This document shows positions 44,456-63,792 of a stretch of 64,000 nt of DNA, piece after piece. Source of the stretch: Candidatus Jordarchaeales archaeon. Its GTDB lineage: Archaea; Asgardarchaeota; Jordiarchaeia; Jordiarchaeales; Freyrarchaeaceae. Within the stretch, counting starts at the first letter, position 1. The number at the start of each line of letters is the position of its first letter. Below the pieces are notes generated by a model that saw only the letters and a list, made by a program, of their open reading frames with translations, searched no databases and had not been told where the DNA came from. Where the stretch lies: the NCBI GenBank assembly GCA_038889235.1, contig JAWAHN010000003.1:381673-445672 (forward strand). Direction: 5' to 3'. A program made the position numbers and the translations under genes.

Positions 44456-45136
44456 TTGAGTGATGCTGTCACCCTTATTGCGCGTGCCGTTGGAGGAGTT
44501 GAAGCCCGCCTCATAATACTTAGAGAGCTTTTAAGTGGGCCGAAGACCGGGGTGGAGTTGAGGTATGCCCTCGCCAGGAGACTGGGTGTCCCCCCTAGGG
44601 CGATCTCGGATGCGAAGATATACTTCAACCTTCAGGCCTTAGAGAACAGCGGAATCATAGTACGCTATAGGGATTGGAAGAACAAGTACGCTGAAATAAA
44701 CCCGAAAATGCTTCAAGCCGTGAGGAAGTATTTGAACATCACTGCTCCTGTTATGTGCCTCGCAGCCCTAGACTCTGAGCCCCTCCTTACAAAAGAGATA
44801 GGGTGGCGTTTAAGGGAGCAAGAAGGAATATCGCCTAGCAGGTACATTTTCATAGCGGAGGACAAAATGAGGGGGAAAATCGGGGGGTTGACGGGGGAAG
44901 CGGAAGTGCTGTGGGTTGACGACGAGACGCTCCACGACTACGAGAGGGTTTACGAAATCGCCGAGGAAGCCCTCAAGAAAGCTATCTCTAAATATGAACC
45001 CATAATCGATGTGACGGACGGGACGAGGGTGACGGTCGCAGCCTTCCAGCAGCTCGCGTGGGAGTATGGGCTCCGCGTCTTCTACCTCAAGGGGAAGCCT
45101 TACGAGAAGAGAAGGGTGGTCTGGATTAGGGGCTAG
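44456..45136 (+). CDS. Winged-helix protein with CARF-like ligand domain
   Basis: A 226-residue protein. Residues 1-90 form a winged-helix domain (ELRYALARRLGVPPRAISDA, then LQALENSGIIVRYRD). Residues 95-226 look like a Rossmann-type CARF domain: an early strand APVMCLAALDSEP and the late motif IIDVTDGTRVTVAAFQQLAW. That late motif matches the DxTGGT-type loop that binds cyclic oligoadenylates in CRISPR-linked CARF proteins, with D in place of the first G. No CRISPR array or cas gene is present in the window. TTG 44456 is used. Its stop codon shares the bases CTAG with the convergent comB gene. Confidence 0.65.
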   Translation: MSDAVTLIARAVGGVEARLIILRELLSGPKTGVELRYALARRLGVPPRAISDAKIYFNLQALENSGIIVRYRDWKNKYAEINPKMLQAVRKYLNITAPVMCLAALDSEPLLTKEIGWRLREQEGISPSRYIFIAEDKMRGKIGGLTGEAEVLWVDDETLHDYERVYEIAEEALKKAISKYEPIIDVTDGTRVTVAAFQQLAWEYGLRVFYLKGKPYEKRRVVWIRG

Positions 45137-45816
45137 TACTCGACGAACATGCCGCCTTTAATCACAGGCACCACGCTGCTCGCGTTTAGCTGGGAGCAGT
45201 ACTCGACATCCCTCCAGAGTCCTATGGAGGCGAGTTCTTTGGCGCTCGGCGAGTTCAAGACGCACTCTTTGTAGTCCGGTGGCTCCCTTCCTTCGACAAA
45301 GCACTTTATAACGCACGCCGTCACATAGTCCTCCGGGCTAAACTCCCCTCTCCTCCCGACGTGGACCACAGTGAGCTTCCTCCCAGTCTTAGTAGCCTCA
45401 CTTCCAGCTGCTTCAGCCACAGCAGAAGCGTTCCTCAGGCAGCCTGCAAATACGGCTGGAGCCCCCATCGCCTGGCAGACCGCTTGCGTGAAGTTAGTGG
45501 TGGTCAAGACTACTATCTTTCCCTCAACGACGTCACGGGTAAACTCCAATGGGGAGTTGCCGAAATCGAAGCCGGGGATCTTCAGCCCTCGCCTCTCGCC
45601 CGCCAGCAGGACGCCAACCCCTCGAGTCCTCAAAAGCTCCCTCGCCTTTCCTACAGCTTCTTCAATAGTGAGCGCTGGGACGACGCCCACGCCTCCATTT
45701 TCTAGTATTGTTGTAACTGTGGTACTGGCTCTCAGCGTGTCCACTACAACCAATATGTGCCCCTTCAATGCGGCTCTTAGAGCGCCTTCGGCGCCGAATG
45801 CCAACCTAACTATCAT
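45133..45816 (-). CDS. comB: 2-phosphosulfolactate phosphatase
   Basis: A 227-residue magnesium-dependent phosphatase that converts 2-phosphosulfolactate to sulfolactate, the second step of coenzyme M synthesis from PEP and sulfite. Family motifs: VVVDTLRASTTVTTILENG near residue 24, LLAGERRGLKIPGFDFGNSP near 70, and LTTTNFTQAV near 104. The gene overlaps comA by four bases. Its presence behind comA is strong support for coenzyme M synthesis, although ComB proteins also occur in some bacteria. Confidence 0.93.
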   Translation of the reverse strand: MIVRLAFGAEGALRAALKGHILVVVDTLRASTTVTTILENGGVGVVPALTIEEAVGKARELLRTRGVGVLLAGERRGLKIPGFDFGNSPLEFTRDVVEGKIVVLTTTNFTQAVCQAMGAPAVFAGCLRNASAVAEAAGSEATKTGRKLTVVHVGRRGEFSPEDYVTACVIKCFVEGREPPDYKECVLNSPSAKELASIGLWRDVEYCSQLNASSVVPVIKGGMFVEY

Positions 45817-46610
45817 TTCAACCCCTTTAAGAGGAGGTCTGGCATCGTATCCCCTCTGAGCCCGAGACGCAACGTTTCGAGCGACACCACGTCCTCCGGG
45901 TGAATGTTACCAAGGTTAACGTCTGGACCAAACCTCTTAATCAGCCACACTTGTTGAGACCTTAGTGGAGCCTCCCATATGATCTTCTCGTGTGGAACGG
46001 CTTGCACGATTGACTCGACAAAGTCCTTCTTCACGTCCCCCTTCGCGTCATAGGGCCCTATTCCGATGCCGCTCTCCCTTGCTTCGACAACAACGTAGTC
46101 AGCCCCGGCTTCGAGTTCACGCTTCATCAGCTCAACTCTTTCCGTGAGGGGGATGGATGCGTCCTCCTCTGGCTTCTTCTTTCCAACCTCGGTGATCACA
46201 GGGTTAAAGCCAAACCTTTTAGCCAGCCTTAGCAGTCCAAGCTTTTCTTCAACATTCATTCTAACAATTCCGTTCGAGATTTCAAGCGAGGAAAAACCTA
46301 ACTCGCGCAGGAAAGAAAGAAACTCCTCAACCTTATCTCTGGCGTAGGCAGCCTCCACGCTCGATCCGCCTGGGAGCGCCATCACCCCAAACTCCTCACA
46401 AAGCTTAATCTTCTCCTTCACAACATTCAGGGGCATGATGAGCCAAGTGCACCAGCCAAACTTCCAAAGGTCAACGTACTCGCCCGCAGCCTCCAAAACA
46501 CTACGCATTTCCGACACACCAATACCACGGTCGATTACCAAAGTTAAACCGCGCGACCTAGGTTTTGAGCACCGCTTCACGAGGGAGAGCTCAAACAACT
46601 GGGGACACAT
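45813..46610 (-). CDS. comA: Phosphosulfolactate synthase
   Basis: A 265-residue TIM-barrel enzyme that adds sulfite to PEP to form phosphosulfolactate, the first step of coenzyme M synthesis. Typical segments are KPRSRGLTLVIDRGIGVSEM at residues 16-35, DLWKFGWCTWLIMP near 50, GVMALPGGSSVEAAYARDK near 75, and VEARESGIGIGPYDAKGDVK near 175. It lies 146 bases behind the small hydrogenase peptide gene on the same strand and overlaps comB. Hydrogenase and CoM synthesis may therefore share a transcript. Confidence 0.94.
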   Translation of the reverse strand: MCPQLFELSLVKRCSKPRSRGLTLVIDRGIGVSEMRSVLEAAGEYVDLWKFGWCTWLIMPLNVVKEKIKLCEEFGVMALPGGSSVEAAYARDKVEEFLSFLRELGFSSLEISNGIVRMNVEEKLGLLRLAKRFGFNPVITEVGKKKPEEDASIPLTERVELMKRELEAGADYVVVEARESGIGIGPYDAKGDVKKDFVESIVQAVPHEKIIWEAPLRSQQVWLIKRFGPDVNLGNIHPEDVVSLETLRLGLRGDTMPDLLLKGLK

Positions 46611-46663: not shown

Positions 46664-46756
46664 AGAAGGAAGGGAAAGGGCATCCCCCTGCTAGGGGGCG
46701 GTCCCCACCCCCGCTGGACCTTTCAGGGGATGAGTCATCCCCAGCCCGGGAACCCT
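46664..46756 (-). other. GC-rich structured 3' region behind the hydrogenase peptide gene, SECIS candidate region
   Basis: Directly after the stop of the small gene the leftward transcript carries several perfect stems: GGGGAT-GACTC-ATCCCC, GGGGG-n9-CCCCC and CCCCC-TAGCA-GGGGG, plus AAAGGG at one end and CCCTTT at the other. A UGAAA lies between stems. Archaeal SECIS elements sit in 3' UTRs and have a GAA/A internal loop near a short GC stem. I cannot place that motif convincingly by eye, so the SECIS role is only a candidate. A terminator or comA leader function is also possible. Confidence 0.4.
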
Positions 46757-46906
46757 TTAAGACTCGCTCAGCTCAATAGTCTTCTCAGCGATTTTCTCGC
46801 CCTTGTGGTTGACGACAACCAGGTGGGCGGCACAACCAAGTCAGCAGTCGTAAGCCCGCATGATAACCTCAATCAAGTTTAAGAGTTTAGGATCCAACTC
46901 CACCAT
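46757..46906 (-). CDS. vhuU: VhuU-like hydrogenase peptide with probable selenocysteine (in-frame TGA)
   Basis: A 49-codon gene. It starts at ATG 46906 after GGGAGG and ends at TAA, with one in-frame TGA at codon 22. It reads MVELDPKLLNLIEVIMRAYD, then C, TGA, LGCAAH, then a 21-residue tail. [NiFe]-hydrogenase large subunits end in DPCxxCxxH, which binds the Ni-Fe site. Here D-C-TGA-L-G-C-A-A-H puts TGA at the first cysteine. MvhA, 19 bases upstream, lacks this motif. In Methanococcus the same part is a separate selenocysteine peptide, VhuU. The cysteine in place of proline before the TGA is unusual. The tail would be removed by a maturation protease. Selenocysteine decoding itself is inferred. 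Confidence 0.85.
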
Positions 46907-46925: not shown

Positions 46926-48248
46926 CTACTTAAACCAAGGCTCCGGGAACTTAAGCTTCTCGTGAATTCTTTCCTCCAGAACCTGCTTAGCTGCGACCAA
47001 CATCGACTTTTCAACCGCGGCGATGTTGTTGTTAGTCGCCACGATAAGGTTCGCCTTCCTTATTACACCTTCATCGTCAGTCCAATAGTTGTATATCAAT
47101 GTTCCACGTGGCGCCTCGACGATAGCTACACCGTTACCCTCCCTTGGACGCACGTCGGCACGCTTAACATCGGAGCTAACTATCTCAGGGTCTTCTAGGA
47201 GCTTCCTGGCTTTCTCTATGGCTTCCATTAGCTCGACTATCCTAGCCCAGTTGTAAGCCAGCGTTGCGTGGCATGGCCTCCCAACAGCGTCCCTGAACTC
47301 CTTAAGCAGCTCCTGAGCTCTGGGAGTCTCCATCTTGTCAGCTACGTTGAGCCTAGCTAGTGGGCCGGCTCGCCATATACCTTCGGGGTACCCTGCAGGC
47401 TTGAAGAATATGTGTGTCGCGTAGGAGTGAGGAGCAACGTGCTCGCCAACATACTGCAAGTAGTCTTTCTTCGGGAAGTCTGCCACAATCTTACCTTCAG
47501 GGTCCATAACCCTGACGGTTGCTTTCCTGTCGTAAATTGTGTGAACACCGTTAACATTCAGCCCAACATAGTAGGTTGGAACTACGCCAAGCTTCGTGAT
47601 CACGTCCAAGTAGCCTTCAACAACTTTCCTCGCAACTTCAATAGTGAAGTCCATAAGTCCCTCTGCTTCGTCGATGAGCTTTAGCAGCCTGTCCCGCTCC
47701 TCCTCAGTAAGCCTTTTCGCTTGACCGCCCGGAACACCAGTCACCGGGTGAACTGAGCGGCCTCCGATGGTCTTAACAATCTCTTGGCCAATCCTCATCA
47801 GAGCGATGGCTTTCTTGACAGCGTCGGGCATATGCTTGAAAACACCTACAAGGTTTCTAATCGACGGGTCGGCGAACGGTCCAGCGAGGAAGTCCGGGGC
47901 GGCTAGAGCGTAGAAGTGTAGAGCGTGACTTGAAATCTGCTTACCTTGCATCATCAGGTCTCTAAGCTTCACGGCAGCGCTGGGCGGTTCAACATCCCAT
48001 GCTGCTTCAACAGCCTCAACCGAGCAGACGTGGTGGGGCACGGGGCATATGCCGCAGATACGTGGCGTCAGTATTGGTGCTTCTTCAGCAAGCCTGCCCT
48101 CAAGGAACTTTTCGAACATACGTGTCAGCGTAACACAGAACTTAAGGTCCTTTACTCCGCCTTTCTCGTCCAGCTCGATTACCACATTCGCGTGTCCTTC
48201 AAGCCTTGTCGCAGGCTCGATAACAACAGTCTTTTCCTTCTTGCTCAT
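46926..48248 (-). CDS. mvhA: F420-non-reducing hydrogenase, large subunit lacking the C-terminal motif
   Basis: A 440-residue group 3c [NiFe] large subunit. The N-terminal nickel motif is present (TPRICGICPVPHHVCSVEA, residues 61-79), as are GVPGGQAKRLTEEE and HATLAYNWARIVELMEAIE. The protein ends at KLKFPEPWFK and has no DPCxxCxxH, so alone it could not build the active site. The missing piece is encoded by the next gene. This is VhuA/VhuU-type splitting, not truncation by damage, because the reading frame ends cleanly and a new ribosome site follows. MvhA feeds electrons from H2 to MvhG, MvhD and HdrA. Confidence 0.95.
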   Translation of the reverse strand: MSKKEKTVVIEPATRLEGHANVVIELDEKGGVKDLKFCVTLTRMFEKFLEGRLAEEAPILTPRICGICPVPHHVCSVEAVEAAWDVEPPSAAVKLRDLMMQGKQISSHALHFYALAAPDFLAGPFADPSIRNLVGVFKHMPDAVKKAIALMRIGQEIVKTIGGRSVHPVTGVPGGQAKRLTEEERDRLLKLIDEAEGLMDFTIEVARKVVEGYLDVITKLGVVPTYYVGLNVNGVHTIYDRKATVRVMDPEGKIVADFPKKDYLQYVGEHVAPHSYATHIFFKPAGYPEGIWRAGPLARLNVADKMETPRAQELLKEFRDAVGRPCHATLAYNWARIVELMEAIEKARKLLEDPEIVSSDVKRADVRPREGNGVAIVEAPRGTLIYNYWTDDEGVIRKANLIVATNNNIAAVEKSMLVAAKQVLEERIHEKLKFPEPWFK

Positions 48249-48262
48249 CTACCAACACCCAC

Positions 48263-49174
48263 CTACTTCTTTTTAGACACGGCTTTCGGTATTATCGAGG
48301 ACGGTAAGGTAAACTTTGAGAACGTACCCACAACGTCTTTGACTGATTGAACAAGCTCCTCTGGGCTAACCGACTCGTAGTCCACTATGCTCGCTAAGGC
48401 GCTGAGCATCTTTGCTCCCTGGTCTAAAACGTTTGGTCCGGGGCCCATGCAGCCTCTGCACGGCACCCCCGCCCTCGTGCAAACGGCTCCACACCCCTCC
48501 CTGGTCGCTGGCCCCATGCATATGTAGCCCTGCTCTAAGAGGCATTTTTCGGGGTCAGGTATGCCTTCAAACGCCCTCTTAACCTTCTTTATGGTTATGA
48601 CTTCCGATTTGACGCGTGGGCATTCGTCACAAAGCGTCCTTTCCTTGAGCTTTGGCATTTCTCCTCTTAGTAAGCTGGTGACCACTTCAGCTATCAGGGG
48701 CGGCTCGGGCGGGCATCCCGGAAGGAAGAGGTCGTATTTAACGTACTCGCGGTTTGGCTTAACGTACTCGAGCATCTTGGGGACATGCATGTCCGGGATT
48801 TTCTTGTCGACAACGCTTTCGGCTTCCATGAACTTCCGCTTTAAGCCTTCATCTATCTGGTAGAGGTTTAGCAGCGCTGGGCTTCCGCCGTAAGTCGAAC
48901 AGGTGCCGTATGATACGAGCAGCTTGCACTTCTGCCTTGCAAGTTTCAACAAGTATAAGTCTTCTTCCGTCCTACAGAAGCCCTCGGTGAACCCTACGTC
49001 GACCGAGCCGTCGGGGAGCTTTTCAACGTCATGCAACTTGTAGTCTACTACGGTGTGCCAGTATACTATTTCAAGTTGAGGTAGGACGTCGGCGAGGGTT
49101 TCATGTAAGTCTACGAGACTCTGGTGGCACCCCCAACAAGAGGCGAGTTGTACAAACATAACCTTTACAGGCAT
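48263..49174 (-). CDS. mvhG: F420-non-reducing hydrogenase, small subunit
   Basis: A 303-residue electron-transfer subunit of the Mvh hydrogenase. The proximal cluster ligands include ASCWGCHQSLVDLHE (residues 11-25) and VSYGTCSTYGGSPAL (near 95), with LFLPGCPPEPPLIAEVV near 152. The C-terminal part has further cysteines (CLLEQGYICMGPATREGCG, then CTRAGVPCRGCMGPGP) for the medial and distal clusters. It lies between mvhD and mvhA with 11-14 base gaps. The absence of a signal peptide fits a cytoplasmic group 3 enzyme. Confidence 0.95.
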   Translation of the reverse strand: MPVKVMFVQLASCWGCHQSLVDLHETLADVLPQLEIVYWHTVVDYKLHDVEKLPDGSVDVGFTEGFCRTEEDLYLLKLARQKCKLLVSYGTCSTYGGSPALLNLYQIDEGLKRKFMEAESVVDKKIPDMHVPKMLEYVKPNREYVKYDLFLPGCPPEPPLIAEVVTSLLRGEMPKLKERTLCDECPRVKSEVITIKKVKRAFEGIPDPEKCLLEQGYICMGPATREGCGAVCTRAGVPCRGCMGPGPNVLDQGAKMLSALASIVDYESVSPEELVQSVKDVVGTFSKFTLPSSIIPKAVSKKK

Positions 49175-49185
49175 ACGTCGCCCTC

Positions 49186-49605
49186 CTACTTAGCTTTTCG
49201 GAGCGGGCTTGGTCCGAGCTCCTTTAAAATGTTAACGAACTCCTCAACGGTTTTCACAAGCTCTGCGCCCTCACTAGCTGAAATCCACCTTAACATAAGT
49301 CTTTCCGGCTCAATCCCTAACTGTTTAAGCATCTCCCTTAGCAACGCTATTCTACGCTCAGCCCTGTAATTTCCTTTCACGTAGTGGCAGTCTCCGGGGT
49401 GGCAGCCCGCAACTAGGACGCCGTCAGCACCCAGCTCGAAAGCCTTGAGCACGAATTGAGGGTCAACCCTACCGCTGCAGAGCACTCTAATAATTCTCAC
49501 GTTTGGGGGGTACTGCATTCTACTAGTCCCAGCCATGTCGGCGCCAGCGTACGAGCACCAATTGCAAAATATGCCTAGTATTTTGGGTTCAAAGTCGTCT
49601 GACAA
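49186..49605 (-). CDS. mvhD: Mvh hydrogenase delta subunit, iron-sulfur link to HdrA
   Basis: A 139-residue [2Fe-2S] protein that carries electrons from the hydrogenase to HdrA. The cysteine pattern is typical: [20 protein letters not shown] (residues 9-28), [14 protein letters not shown], and [15 protein letters not shown]. In Methanococcus VhuD and some relatives one of these cysteines can be selenocysteine. Here all are encoded as cysteine. It is the first gene of the leftward operon and reads from the region shared with hdrA. Confidence 0.94.
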
Positions 49606-49796: not shown

Positions 49797-51758
49797 ATGA
49801 GTGATAAGAAAGGCGCCGAGAACGTCCGCATAGGAGTTTTCGTGTGCCATTGTGGTACCAATATTGCTGGGGTCATAAACGTCGAGGAGCTCGTCAAATA
49901 CGCTTCCAAGCTTCCGGGGGTTGTTGTCGCTAAGGATTACCGTTTCATGTGTTCCGACCCGGGCCAGAACATGATTAAGGAGGCCATAAGAGACTATAAG
50001 CTTAACAGGGTTGTGGTCGCAGCCTGCAGCCCGAGGCTTCACGAGGAAACCTTTAGGAAAGCCGTGGAGGCTGCTGGTTTAAACCCGTTCCTATTCGAGA
50101 TGGCGAACATTAGAGAGCACTCAAGCTGGGTTCACATGAGGAGGCCTAAGGAAGCGCTAGAAAAGGCTAAAGACTTGATTAGAATGGCTGTCGCGAAAGT
50201 TAGGGTCTCAGAGCCGTTGGAAGTTAAAATGGTGCCTGTCAAGGGAACGTGCGTCATTATAGGTGGCGGCGTTGCCGGAATTTCGGCTGCACTCGACTTA
50301 GCTGACGCGGGCTTCAAAGTACATCTTGTTGAGTCGTCACCTTCAATCGGTGGGCGGATGGCACAGCTGGACAAGACTTTTCCAACCATGGACTGCTCCG
50401 CCTGCATACTGACACCGTTAATGGTGATGGTTGCCCGCCATCCGAACATTACGCTTCACGCTTACAGTGAGGTCGTGAGTGTTGACGGGTACGTGGGGAA
50501 CTTCAAGGTAAAGATAAGAGAGAAGTCGAGGTACGTGAAGAAGGAAGCGTGCACAGGGTGCGGTCTCTGTACTGACGTCTGCCCAGTACATGTGCCAAAC
50601 GAGTTCGAGCTGGGGCTCGGCGTGAGAAAAGCAATATACGTTCCCTTCCCCCAGGCGGTCCCCAACACTTACACTATAGATAGGGATAAGTGCATAGAGT
50701 GCGAGTTGTGCACCAAGGTCTGCGAGGCCAAAGCAATAGACTTCAACATGCAGGACAAGGAGATCGAGATTGAAGCCGGAACGATAATAGTGGCGACTGG
50801 ATATGACATCTTCCAGCCCTACGAAATGTACCAGTACGGCTATGGCAGGTACGAGAACGTGATAACTTCTCTCCACATGGAGAGGCTCCTCAGCGCATCT
50901 GGGCCAACTGGAGGAAAGGTGATTGTCCCGTCGAGTGGTGAGAAGCCCAAGCGCGTAGCTTTCGTTCAGTGTGTGGGCTCAAGGGACGAGCACTACTTCC
51001 CCTACTGCTCGAGGGTTTGTTGCATGTACAGCTTGAAACACGCGAGACAGATAAAGGAGAAGTACCCTGACACCGAAGTGTACATCTTCTTCATAGACGT
51101 GAGAGCTTTCGGCAAGGGTTACGAGGAGTTCTACGAGATGGCTGCCAGAGAGTACGATGTGAAGATAGTAAGGGGCAAAGTGGCTGAGATATACGAGGAC
51201 CCGAAGACCAAGAAATTACTCGTTAGGGCTGAAGACAGCCTTGTAGGCGAGCCCATAGAAATGGAGTTCGACATGGTTGTTCTCGCCACAGCAGTCAAGC
51301 CAAGTGCGGGAGCTGAAAAGATACAGCAGATACTGAAGCTCTCTAGAAGCGCGGACGGATTCTTCCTAGAAGCCCACCCCAAGCTGAGACCAGTAGACAC
51401 GTTCACTGACGGAGTATTTGTGGCAGGTATGGCCCAAGGTCCGAAGGATATACCGGACACCGTGGCGCAGGCTAAGGGTGCGGCTGCGAGGGCTGCAGCT
51501 CTCATGGGCAAGGGAGAGGTCGCGATAGAGCCGTACTACGCCGTGGTCAACGAGGAAATATGCTCCGGGTGCAAGACGTGCTCCGGGATCTGCCCATACG
51601 GGGCAATAAGCTACAACGAGGACGGCAGAGCAGTAATAAACAGCGCTCTATGCAAGGGCTGCGGTGCATGCGCGGCAGCATGCCCATCAAACGCGATAGA
51701 GCCAAACCACTTCAAGTTCCGCCAGATCATGGAACAGATACTGGCGGCGTTCGAGTAA
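49797..51758 (+). CDS. hdrA: Heterodisulfide reductase subunit A
   Basis: A 653-residue flavin-bifurcating subunit. Order of parts: VFVCHCGTNIAGVINVEELV (N-terminal cluster domain), YRFMCSDPGQNMIKEA, the FAD site VIIGGGVAGISAALDLADAG (residues 153-172), LDKTFPTMDCSACILTPLM, ferredoxin motifs CTGCGLCTDVCP and CIECELCTKVCE, a second flavin segment, and two further clusters CSGCKTCSGICP and CKGCGACAAACP at the C-terminus. All positions where HdrA selenoproteins use selenocysteine are cysteine here. It couples H2 oxidation by Mvh to reduction of ferredoxin and the CoM-CoB heterodisulfide or a related disulfide. Confidence 0.97.
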   Translation: MSDKKGAENVRIGVFVCHCGTNIAGVINVEELVKYASKLPGVVVAKDYRFMCSDPGQNMIKEAIRDYKLNRVVVAACSPRLHEETFRKAVEAAGLNPFLFEMANIREHSSWVHMRRPKEALEKAKDLIRMAVAKVRVSEPLEVKMVPVKGTCVIIGGGVAGISAALDLADAGFKVHLVESSPSIGGRMAQLDKTFPTMDCSACILTPLMVMVARHPNITLHAYSEVVSVDGYVGNFKVKIREKSRYVKKEACTGCGLCTDVCPVHVPNEFELGLGVRKAIYVPFPQAVPNTYTIDRDKCIECELCTKVCEAKAIDFNMQDKEIEIEAGTIIVATGYDIFQPYEMYQYGYGRYENVITSLHMERLLSASGPTGGKVIVPSSGEKPKRVAFVQCVGSRDEHYFPYCSRVCCMYSLKHARQIKEKYPDTEVYIFFIDVRAFGKGYEEFYEMAAREYDVKIVRGKVAEIYEDPKTKKLLVRAEDSLVGEPIEMEFDMVVLATAVKPSAGAEKIQQILKLSRSADGFFLEAHPKLRPVDTFTDGVFVAGMAQGPKDIPDTVAQAKGAAARAAALMGKGEVAIEPYYAVVNEEICSGCKTCSGICPYGAISYNEDGRAVINSALCKGCGACAAACPSNAIEPNHFKFRQIMEQILAAFE

Positions 51759-51935: not shown

Positions 51936-52541
51936 ATGCGCTCGAAGGTAGAGGTGAATGCTGACCAAGCGCTTAAGGTGATTGATTTGTCAACTACACA
52001 GCTCATCAAAAAGTTTGACACCGACTTCACGCAAGAAGTCATAGAGTATGCTTCCAAGTTCTTCGAAAACGTGGAAAACGTGAAGAGCTGCATTCAATGC
52101 GCAACATGCACCGGGTCTTGCCCCAGCGGACGCGAAACCGCCTGGCGAGTGAGAAAACTGATAAGGCAGATCCAGCTTGGACTTAAAAACGCAGCAATAA
52201 GAAACGACGTTTTATGGGATTGCACTACATGCTACACCTGCCAGGAGAGGTGTCCCAGGCTTATCCCGATAACGGATATCGTTCGAGCCGTGAGAAACAT
52301 TGCTGTCCGTAACGGGTTCATGCTACCCAGACACGTCCAGGTAGCTGGCCTCATGATCAAGCACGGCCATGCTGTTCCGATCAATGATGAGGTGAAGGCG
52401 GTGAGGAAGGAGATAGGGTTAAGCGAGCTTCCACCCACCGTCCACTCATACCCCGACGCGCTGGGGGAGGTTAAAAAGCTGCTTGACGAGACTGGATTCA
52501 CTAAGTTAGTGGAGGAAGCGTCTAAGGGGGTTCAGAAATGA
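51936..52541 (+). CDS. hdrC: Heterodisulfide reductase subunit C
   Basis: A 201-residue ferredoxin-like subunit with two [4Fe-4S] motifs: CIQCATCTGSCPSG (residues 50-63) and CTTCYTCQERCPRL (residues 91-104). It passes electrons from HdrA to HdrB. The ATG at 51936 sits only a few bases behind a strong TATA box (CTTTTTTATAG, about 51924-51934). Transcription should start near 51955, so the in-frame GTG at 51954 may be the real leaderless start, six codons shorter. It overlaps hdrB by four bases. A 177-base gap with its own promoter separates it from hdrA. Confidence 0.94.
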   Translation: MRSKVEVNADQALKVIDLSTTQLIKKFDTDFTQEVIEYASKFFENVENVKSCIQCATCTGSCPSGRETAWRVRKLIRQIQLGLKNAAIRNDVLWDCTTCYTCQERCPRLIPITDIVRAVRNIAVRNGFMLPRHVQVAGLMIKHGHAVPINDEVKAVRKEIGLSELPPTVHSYPDALGEVKKLLDETGFTKLVEEASKGVQK

Positions 52542-53428
52542 GCAAGTACGCTTATTTCTTAGGTTGTTTAACCCCAAACAGGTATCCGGGTATTGAGGCG
52601 GCGACTATTGATCTTTTGAGGATGTTTGACATCGAACTTGACTACATGAAGGGTACTTCTTGCTGTCCTGCTCCGGGGGTTTTCGGTAGCTTCGACCTTG
52701 AAACTTGGCTCACTGTGGCGGCTAGGAACATTTCGATTGCCGAGGAAATGGGGAGGGATATCACGCTGACTTGTAACGGTTGCTTTGCCACTCTCCAAGA
52801 AGCAGACCACATGCTTAAGGGTAACAGGGAGCTTGTGAAGCTTATTAACAACCACCTGTCGAAGGTTGGTAGGCAGTATAAGGGGACGGTCAACGTAGTC
52901 CACGTGATAGAAATACTCTACAACGAAATAGGGCCGGAGAAGATAAGGGATAGGGTTGTCCAGCCGCTTGACGGAATCAAAGTTGCCTGTCATTACGGCT
53001 GCCACTTCCTTAAGCCGAGCTCTGTGAGGCAGAAGGGCAACCCGGAGAACCCGACTATGCTTGAGGAGCTCGTTGAAGCCGTAGGTGCAACACCAGTAGA
53101 ATACAAGGATAAGAAGATGTGCTGCGGGGCAGGAGGAGGGGTCAGAGCTGGGAAGATAGATGTAGCATTAGAGATGACGCGGAAGAAGCTCGACGCCATG
53201 ATCGAGGCGGGAGCAGACTGCATAACTACTCCATGCGTTTTCTGCCAGTTCCAGTTTGACCAGGGTCAGACAGAGATCAACAACAAGCTTGGGGTTGAGA
53301 AGTACAAGGTGCCAGTTGTCTTCATAACGCAACTTATTGGGTTAGCGCTGGGCATATCGCCGAGAAGGATGGGACTACACCGCCACAGAATACCAGTCAA
53401 ACCCGTGCTTGATAAGATTTTCCACTAG
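52538..53428 (+). CDS. hdrB: Heterodisulfide reductase subunit B
   Basis: A 296-residue catalytic subunit with two CCG domains that hold the noncubane [4Fe-4S] clusters. First set: AYFLGCLTPNRYPG, GTSCCPAPGVFG and LTCNGCFATL. Second set: KVACHYGCHFLKPS, KMCCGAGGGVRAG and TTPCVFCQFQFDQGQ. It reduces the CoM-S-S-CoB heterodisulfide in methanogens. Both motif sets are complete, so an active enzyme is likely. It is the last gene of the rightward hdr unit. A shorter, divergent paralogue pair is at 60912-62269. Confidence 0.96.
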   Translation: MSKYAYFLGCLTPNRYPGIEAATIDLLRMFDIELDYMKGTSCCPAPGVFGSFDLETWLTVAARNISIAEEMGRDITLTCNGCFATLQEADHMLKGNRELVKLINNHLSKVGRQYKGTVNVVHVIEILYNEIGPEKIRDRVVQPLDGIKVACHYGCHFLKPSSVRQKGNPENPTMLEELVEAVGATPVEYKDKKMCCGAGGGVRAGKIDVALEMTRKKLDAMIEAGADCITTPCVFCQFQFDQGQTEINNKLGVEKYKVPVVFITQLIGLALGISPRRMGLHRHRIPVKPVLDKIFH

Positions 53429-63276: not shown

Positions 63277-63792
63277 TTGCTTGCCGGCAAACTGAGGGAG
63301 TTGCTTAAGGGGGCACGTAGGGTCGCAGTGATAGGCGTGGGGAGCAGGTTTAGGGGGGATGACGCGCTAGGTCTGGAAGTAGCCAGGAGGCTTAAAGGAG
63401 CCGGGCTGAGGGGCGTGCTGGTGGTGGAGGCTGAAACCGTGCCTGAGAACTTCACAGGCGAGCTTAGAAGGTTCCACCCAAGCCACGTCTTGCTCGTGGA
63501 CGCAGCGCACTTTGGAGGTAAACCGGGGGATGTCGTCGTAGCGTCCGGCTCCTCATCCATGCGCGGAGTTTCTTTCTCGACGCACCACATGCCGCTTTCC
63601 ATGTTCGCAAGATTCGTTGAGGCATCAATAGGCTCAACGGTCGTCCTGGTTGGGGTCCAGCCGGGTAGCCTCCACGGGGAGGGGCTCTCACCCGAGGTGG
63701 AAGACGCGGTGTCAATTCTCACAAAGATTTTAAGCGAAGTCCTTTCAGAATTACCGGGCTTAGAGGCGGTGTCCGAAATTGGAGAGAATTAG
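63277..63792 (+). CDS. Hydrogenase maturation protease, HycI/HyaD type
   Basis: A 171-residue endopeptidase that trims the C-terminus of [NiFe] large subunits after nickel insertion. Motifs: AVIGVGSRFRGDDALGLEVA (residues 16-35, the acidic nickel-sensing site), VLLVDAAHFGGKPGDVV (residues 70-86), and THHMPLSMFARF (the histidine site). TTG 63277 is used. Its likely substrate is the small peptide at 46757-46906, which carries a 21-residue tail after the CxxH motif. No other [NiFe] large subunit gene is seen in the window. Confidence 0.88.
   Translation: MLAGKLRELLKGARRVAVIGVGSRFRGDDALGLEVARRLKGAGLRGVLVVEAETVPENFTGELRRFHPSHVLLVDAAHFGGKPGDVVVASGSSSMRGVSFSTHHMPLSMFARFVEASIGSTVVLVGVQPGSLHGEGLSPEVEDAVSILTKILSEVLSELPGLEAVSEIGEN

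Follow-up and report, generated by a model that had tools for sequence, protein, structure and literature searches.

We have identified, in a 64,000-nucleotide stretch of a Candidatus Jordarchaeales genome (the whole of which is called the window here), a small gene that almost certainly encodes a VhuU-type selenoprotein, that is, the C-terminus of an Mvh/Vhu [NiFe] hydrogenase large subunit, encoded as a gene of its own. Its in-frame UGA would be read as selenocysteine (Sec) through PSTK, SepSecS and SelD together with SelB and a 3' hairpin, and the peptide would supply nickel ligands in a complex with MvhGD and HdrABC. In methanogens, VhuU completes the nickel site of the large subunit. The original prediction placed the gene correctly but gave no strand, which is minus:

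46757..46906, minus strand: vhuU-like gene, 49 amino acids, one TGA (codon 22) predicted to be read as selenocysteine, stop TAA
46841..46843, minus strand: in-frame TGA (putative Sec codon) of the vhuU-like gene, within Y-D-C-U-L-G-C-A-A-H, kept in all relatives examined

A 49-codon gene with a ribosome site, 19 bases behind mvhA, had been claimed, as had an in-frame TGA at the first cysteine of the nickel motif (D-C-TGA-L-G-C-A-A-H) with codons continuing to TAA, and the coordinates bear out both. The frame opens with ATG at 46906, 19 bases downstream of the mvhA stop and 10 bases after a ribosome-site-like GGGAGG, and closes with TAA at 46759-46757, giving 49 sense codons within the 150 bases. 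The only in-frame TGA is codon 22, at 46843-46841, and it occupies the first Ni-ligand position of UxxCxxH. The 49-residue product (MVELDPKLLNLIEVIMRAYDCULGCAAHLVVVNHKGEKIAEKTIELSES) carries a 21-residue tail after His28. Its top family is NF041786 VhuU (E=9.3e-16), with 57.4 bits when Cys stands for Sec in the scored sequence, which lies below the curated cut-off of 70 bits; the peptide is filed here as an Asgard VhuU-type protein and not as an NF041786 equivalog.

Upstream of this gene, and on both strands beyond, lie the genes of the presumptive complex:

46926..48248, minus strand: mvhA/vhuA, [NiFe] hydrogenase large subunit without the C-terminal nickel motif, best PDB match 9sfi_g (474 bits)
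48263..49174, minus strand: mvhG/vhuG, hydrogenase small subunit (PF01058)
49186..49605, minus strand: mvhD/vhuD, all-Cys copy (PF02662 FlpD)
49797..51758, plus strand: hdrA-like flavin/iron-sulfur protein, Cys form, putative electron-confurcation partner
51936..52541, plus strand: hdrC-like protein, named from sequence reading
52538..53428, plus strand: hdrB-like protein, named from sequence reading

The N-terminal RICGICPVPH motif is present in MvhA, which ends in FPEPWFK, and no DxCxxCxxH motif was found at its C-terminus. Another intact mvhA with its own C-terminal motif had been named as something that would speak against the prediction; a PF00374 search of the genome found no second hydrogenase large subunit. 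As mvhA is without the motif, no other large subunit was found and the genome holds Sec machinery and a SECIS element (both described below), the small peptide is best read as a VhuU-type [NiFeSe] subunit. The presence of MvhGD and HdrABC around it points to an electron-bifurcating or confurcating complex. Two genes for coenzyme M biosynthesis, comA (PF02679) and comB (PF04029), also adjoin the hydrogenase operon (window 45133-46610, minus strand).

The TGA is conserved. Relatives of mvhA with 69-90% identity, confirmed by tblastn, occur in Jordarchaeum and Freyarchaeota MAGs (Asgard archaea), and in five of five separately assembled Jordarchaeia relatives the same TGC-TGA stands in a 49-codon frame behind mvhA. 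Between the window and the three closest relatives, synonymous codon changes outnumber non-synonymous ones both before and after the TGA, as expected if translation runs through it. Of 228 Asgard genomes, 197 have a match to a profile built from six peptides (that of the window and those of the five relatives), and exactly one TGA is present in about 130 of the listed matches. The original prediction had proposed asking whether relatives carry TGC or TGA at this codon, and had named a sequencing error as a possible refutation; the relatives examined keep TGA, and since the TGA and the frame downstream of it are kept in five assemblies and some 130 Asgard matches, both chance and sequencing error can be set aside as explanations. 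Could the TGA nevertheless simply be a stop, or could it be an error of assembly in a gene that has decayed, so that only a 21-residue peptide is made? TGA does serve as a normal stop in this genome: of the 46 long ORFs in the window, 13 end in TGA, which is thus not globally reassigned. The same assembly also has a frameshift in selD (near 553471 in G000:C1:553189-554101, loci L015 and L017), itself either an assembly error or real. However, an ordinary stop or error would have to recur with the downstream frame in five assemblies and across the phylum, and a stop would leave MvhA without C-terminal nickel ligands in a genome where no other large subunit was found, so that we consider this explanation very improbable.

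Asgard genomes also contain Cys paralogues of VhuU that read DCCLSCSAF (L094 in G005, L095 in G166 and L096 in G187), in which the Sec position has TGT and Phe replaces the His where the peptide would be cut. Two of these three are not directly behind mvhA, the copies away from mvhA being those in G005 and G166.

The genes for Sec synthesis and insertion that the original prediction said should be sought (selB, selD, pstK, sepSecS and tRNA-Sec) were all found in the genome, PSTK as a homologue. SelB (TIGR00475, 270 bits) also matches the archaeal SelB domain III (PF21440), and SepSecS (TIGR03531, 498 bits) is encoded directly behind it; the PSTK homologue scores 192 bits (E=8e-57), below the equivalog cut-off. 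SelD has an in-frame TGA of its own, at HG-U-ACK. In addition, two MvhD copies elsewhere in the genome have two TGAs each, and an HdrA adjoining one of these Sec-MvhD genes has one, in NDCAI-U-ILGP. The tRNA-Sec gene is as follows:

G000:C1:335996-336140, minus strand: tRNA-Sec gene (loci L164-L167), three predicted introns

Intron-like insertions interrupt its D, anticodon and T loops. Without them, a 90-nt RNA remains that folds at -59.8 kcal/mol, its acceptor having 9 bp, the D stem 7 bp, the anticodon stem and the variable arm 6 bp each and the T stem 4 bp, with anticodon UCA in the loop CUUCAAA; the exact splice sites are predicted. The exons are conserved in G001, G003 and G007 and the insertions are variable, that of the anticodon loop being absent from G007. 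Searches of whole genomes with ARAGORN and the Rfam tRNA-Sec model did not reveal the gene, which scores only 27.8 bits with RF01852, under the cut-off; it escaped both because of the insertions in the D, anticodon and T loops. The first candidate in this genome (L003) and another from the same genus (L031) were both tRNA-Leu. In the genus, an initial anticodon/T-loop pattern picked up only chance matches, and a looser one found the intron-containing gene. Introns are reported in 92-95% of the tRNA genes of Freyarchaeia and Atabeyarchaeia, often several to a gene (PMC11291895).

Behind the vhuU-like stop lies a putative SECIS element:

46690..46746, minus strand: eSECIS-like type I hairpin, conserved and covarying across Asgard archaea

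Downstream of the stop the order is GCUGGGG-AUGA-CUCAUCCCC-UGAAAGGUCCAGC-GGGGGUGGG-GA-CCGCCCCCUAGC. The lower stem is GCUGGGG/CCCCCUAGC, the core comprises AUGA (46738-46735) and GA (46703-46702), and the 9-bp upper stem CUCAUCCCC/GGGGGUGGG is capped by the apical loop UGAAAGGUCCAGC. With its AUGA_GA core, long upper stem and unpaired apical A run, the hairpin belongs to type I; an eSECIS-like type I model with this core and A run has been described for Asgard genes (PMC11227280). Among 62 distinct 3' regions of Asgard vhuU genes, an average of 7.6 of the nine upper-stem positions are paired; exchanging arms between sequences lowers this to 4.5, and shuffling the downstream sequence to 4.3. 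These figures are support and not a probability, because close relatives are not independent. Individual pairs vary among GC, CG, AU and UA. No Rfam family matching the 3'UTR was found, and a plain minimum-free-energy fold of the whole 3'UTR is uninformative (z -0.78) and prefers another structure. Similar elements lie behind SelD and one Sec-MvhD in the genome. The vhuU stop is TGA in 56 of 69 Asgard genes, mostly within the SECIS AUGA, whereas the genus of the window has TAA and a displaced SECIS, its core starting about 20 bases after the stop. Where the terminal UGA doubles as the SECIS-core UGA (for example in L065, L077, L090 and L105), one mRNA carries two UGAs of opposite meaning; such an overlap was already noted for Lokiarchaeia (PMC11227280). 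The Sec machinery and the hairpin also bear on the possibility that readthrough of the UGA inserts an ordinary residue such as Cys or Trp. The TGT of the Asgard Cys paralogues does indicate that Cys is tolerated in sequence at the Sec position, but such readthrough is highly unlikely in view of a complete Sec machinery, a tRNA-Sec with anticodon UCA, the eSECIS-like hairpin and the TGAs that several further genes carry at known Sec positions.

Decoding of the TGA as Sec in a VhuU-like subunit, as originally predicted, is thus supported by the Sec machinery, the conserved TGA and the want of any other large subunit with a C-terminal motif, all of it evidence from sequence. Codon 22 would receive Sec from a Sec-tRNA made by the PSTK/SepSecS/SelD route, with SelB guided by the hairpin about 105 bases downstream of the UGA. 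Sec22 and Cys25 would then provide two of the four nickel ligands, those missing from MvhA, as known [NiFe] hydrogenases and homology to 9sfi suggest. The best PDB match of MvhA is the large subunit of that complex, which also holds a separate VhuU-like chain of 27 residues, named F420 non-reducing hydrogenase subunit and reading ...RAYDP-X-YSCAAHM, that aligns with our peptide. That the Sec peptide is made yet leaves MvhA incomplete, acting as a free redox peptide through its Cys-Sec pair, we regard as the least probable reading of all, for although the DCCLSCSAF look-alikes away from mvhA (G005, G166) indicate that such a peptide can exist outside the operon, the Sec form stands directly behind an mvhA that is without exactly that motif and 9sfi holds an analogous separate chain. 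The VhuU-type subunit proposed here would probably be cut after His28, which is plausible given the two HycI-type proteases in the genome, one on C2 and the other in the window:

63379..63729, plus strand: HycI-type hydrogenase maturation endopeptidase (PF01750; G000:C3:445051-445401), candidate for trimming after His28

The mature subunit may then work alongside MvhGD and HdrABC in electron bifurcation or confurcation linked to H2. The annotation is corrected accordingly by a catalytic C-terminus, for the only large subunit found in the genome, that standard gene callers miss.

The original prediction also drew attention to the change from Pro to Cys that creates a Cys-Sec pair. The pair is present but is not peculiar to this gene: of 63 distinct Asgard loci, 58 read D-C-U, the remainder being D-P-U (two), D-N-U, D-F-U and H-C-U (one each). 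The last three, which depart at the Asp or at the residue preceding Sec, are rare variants from L098 (G089), L111 (G168) and L119 (G192). D-P-C is retained in the three all-Cys fused large subunits that were inspected. A search of titles and abstracts, incomplete in coverage, found no discussion of a Cys-Sec pair in hydrogenases, and this pair is the only part of the finding that may be new. A more speculative reading, which we hold less likely than not, is that Asgard [NiFeSe] hydrogenases carry a clade-wide vicinal Cys-Sec pair instead of Pro-Sec, in which the extra Cys might bond reversibly with the nickel-ligating Sec as a selenenyl-sulfide and so switch or protect the active site. If true, we found no description of such a design in other hydrogenases, and in any case the pair raises a question about [NiFeSe] active sites that is simple and can be tested.

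Compared with methanogen VhuU (NF041786; 9sfi_M), the Asgard peptide is likewise a separate small UxxCxxH subunit for a large subunit without that motif, and the two share a homologous N-terminal helix (LNLIEIVLRAYD). They differ in that the solved methanogen chain has DP-X at the Sec position where ours has DC-U, in the 21-residue tail of our peptide, and in the 3' element, which is of the GAA_A type in methanogens (PMC11227280) and eSECIS-like here. Among Asgard archaea, FrhA, MvhA and VhuU selenoproteins have been reported widely (PMC11227280), and VhuU selenoproteins of about 50 amino acids in Freyarchaeia and Atabeyarchaeia, Freyarchaeia being the same as Jordarchaeia (PMC11291895). With these we found no essential difference: the archaeal class, size, Sec, machinery and eSECIS-like structures are the same. 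Jordarchaeia MAGs were previously reported to contain Sec machinery, tRNA-Sec and HdrA, MvhD and Prx selenoproteins, and H2 evolution was proposed for them (PMC9723677); in the main text of that study, VhuU is absent from the selenoproteins listed and nothing is said of tRNA-Sec introns. In summary, the finding is right and its kind is already known in this lineage, which is close to eukaryotes and in which, judging from its genes, H2 metabolism may be selenium-dependent.
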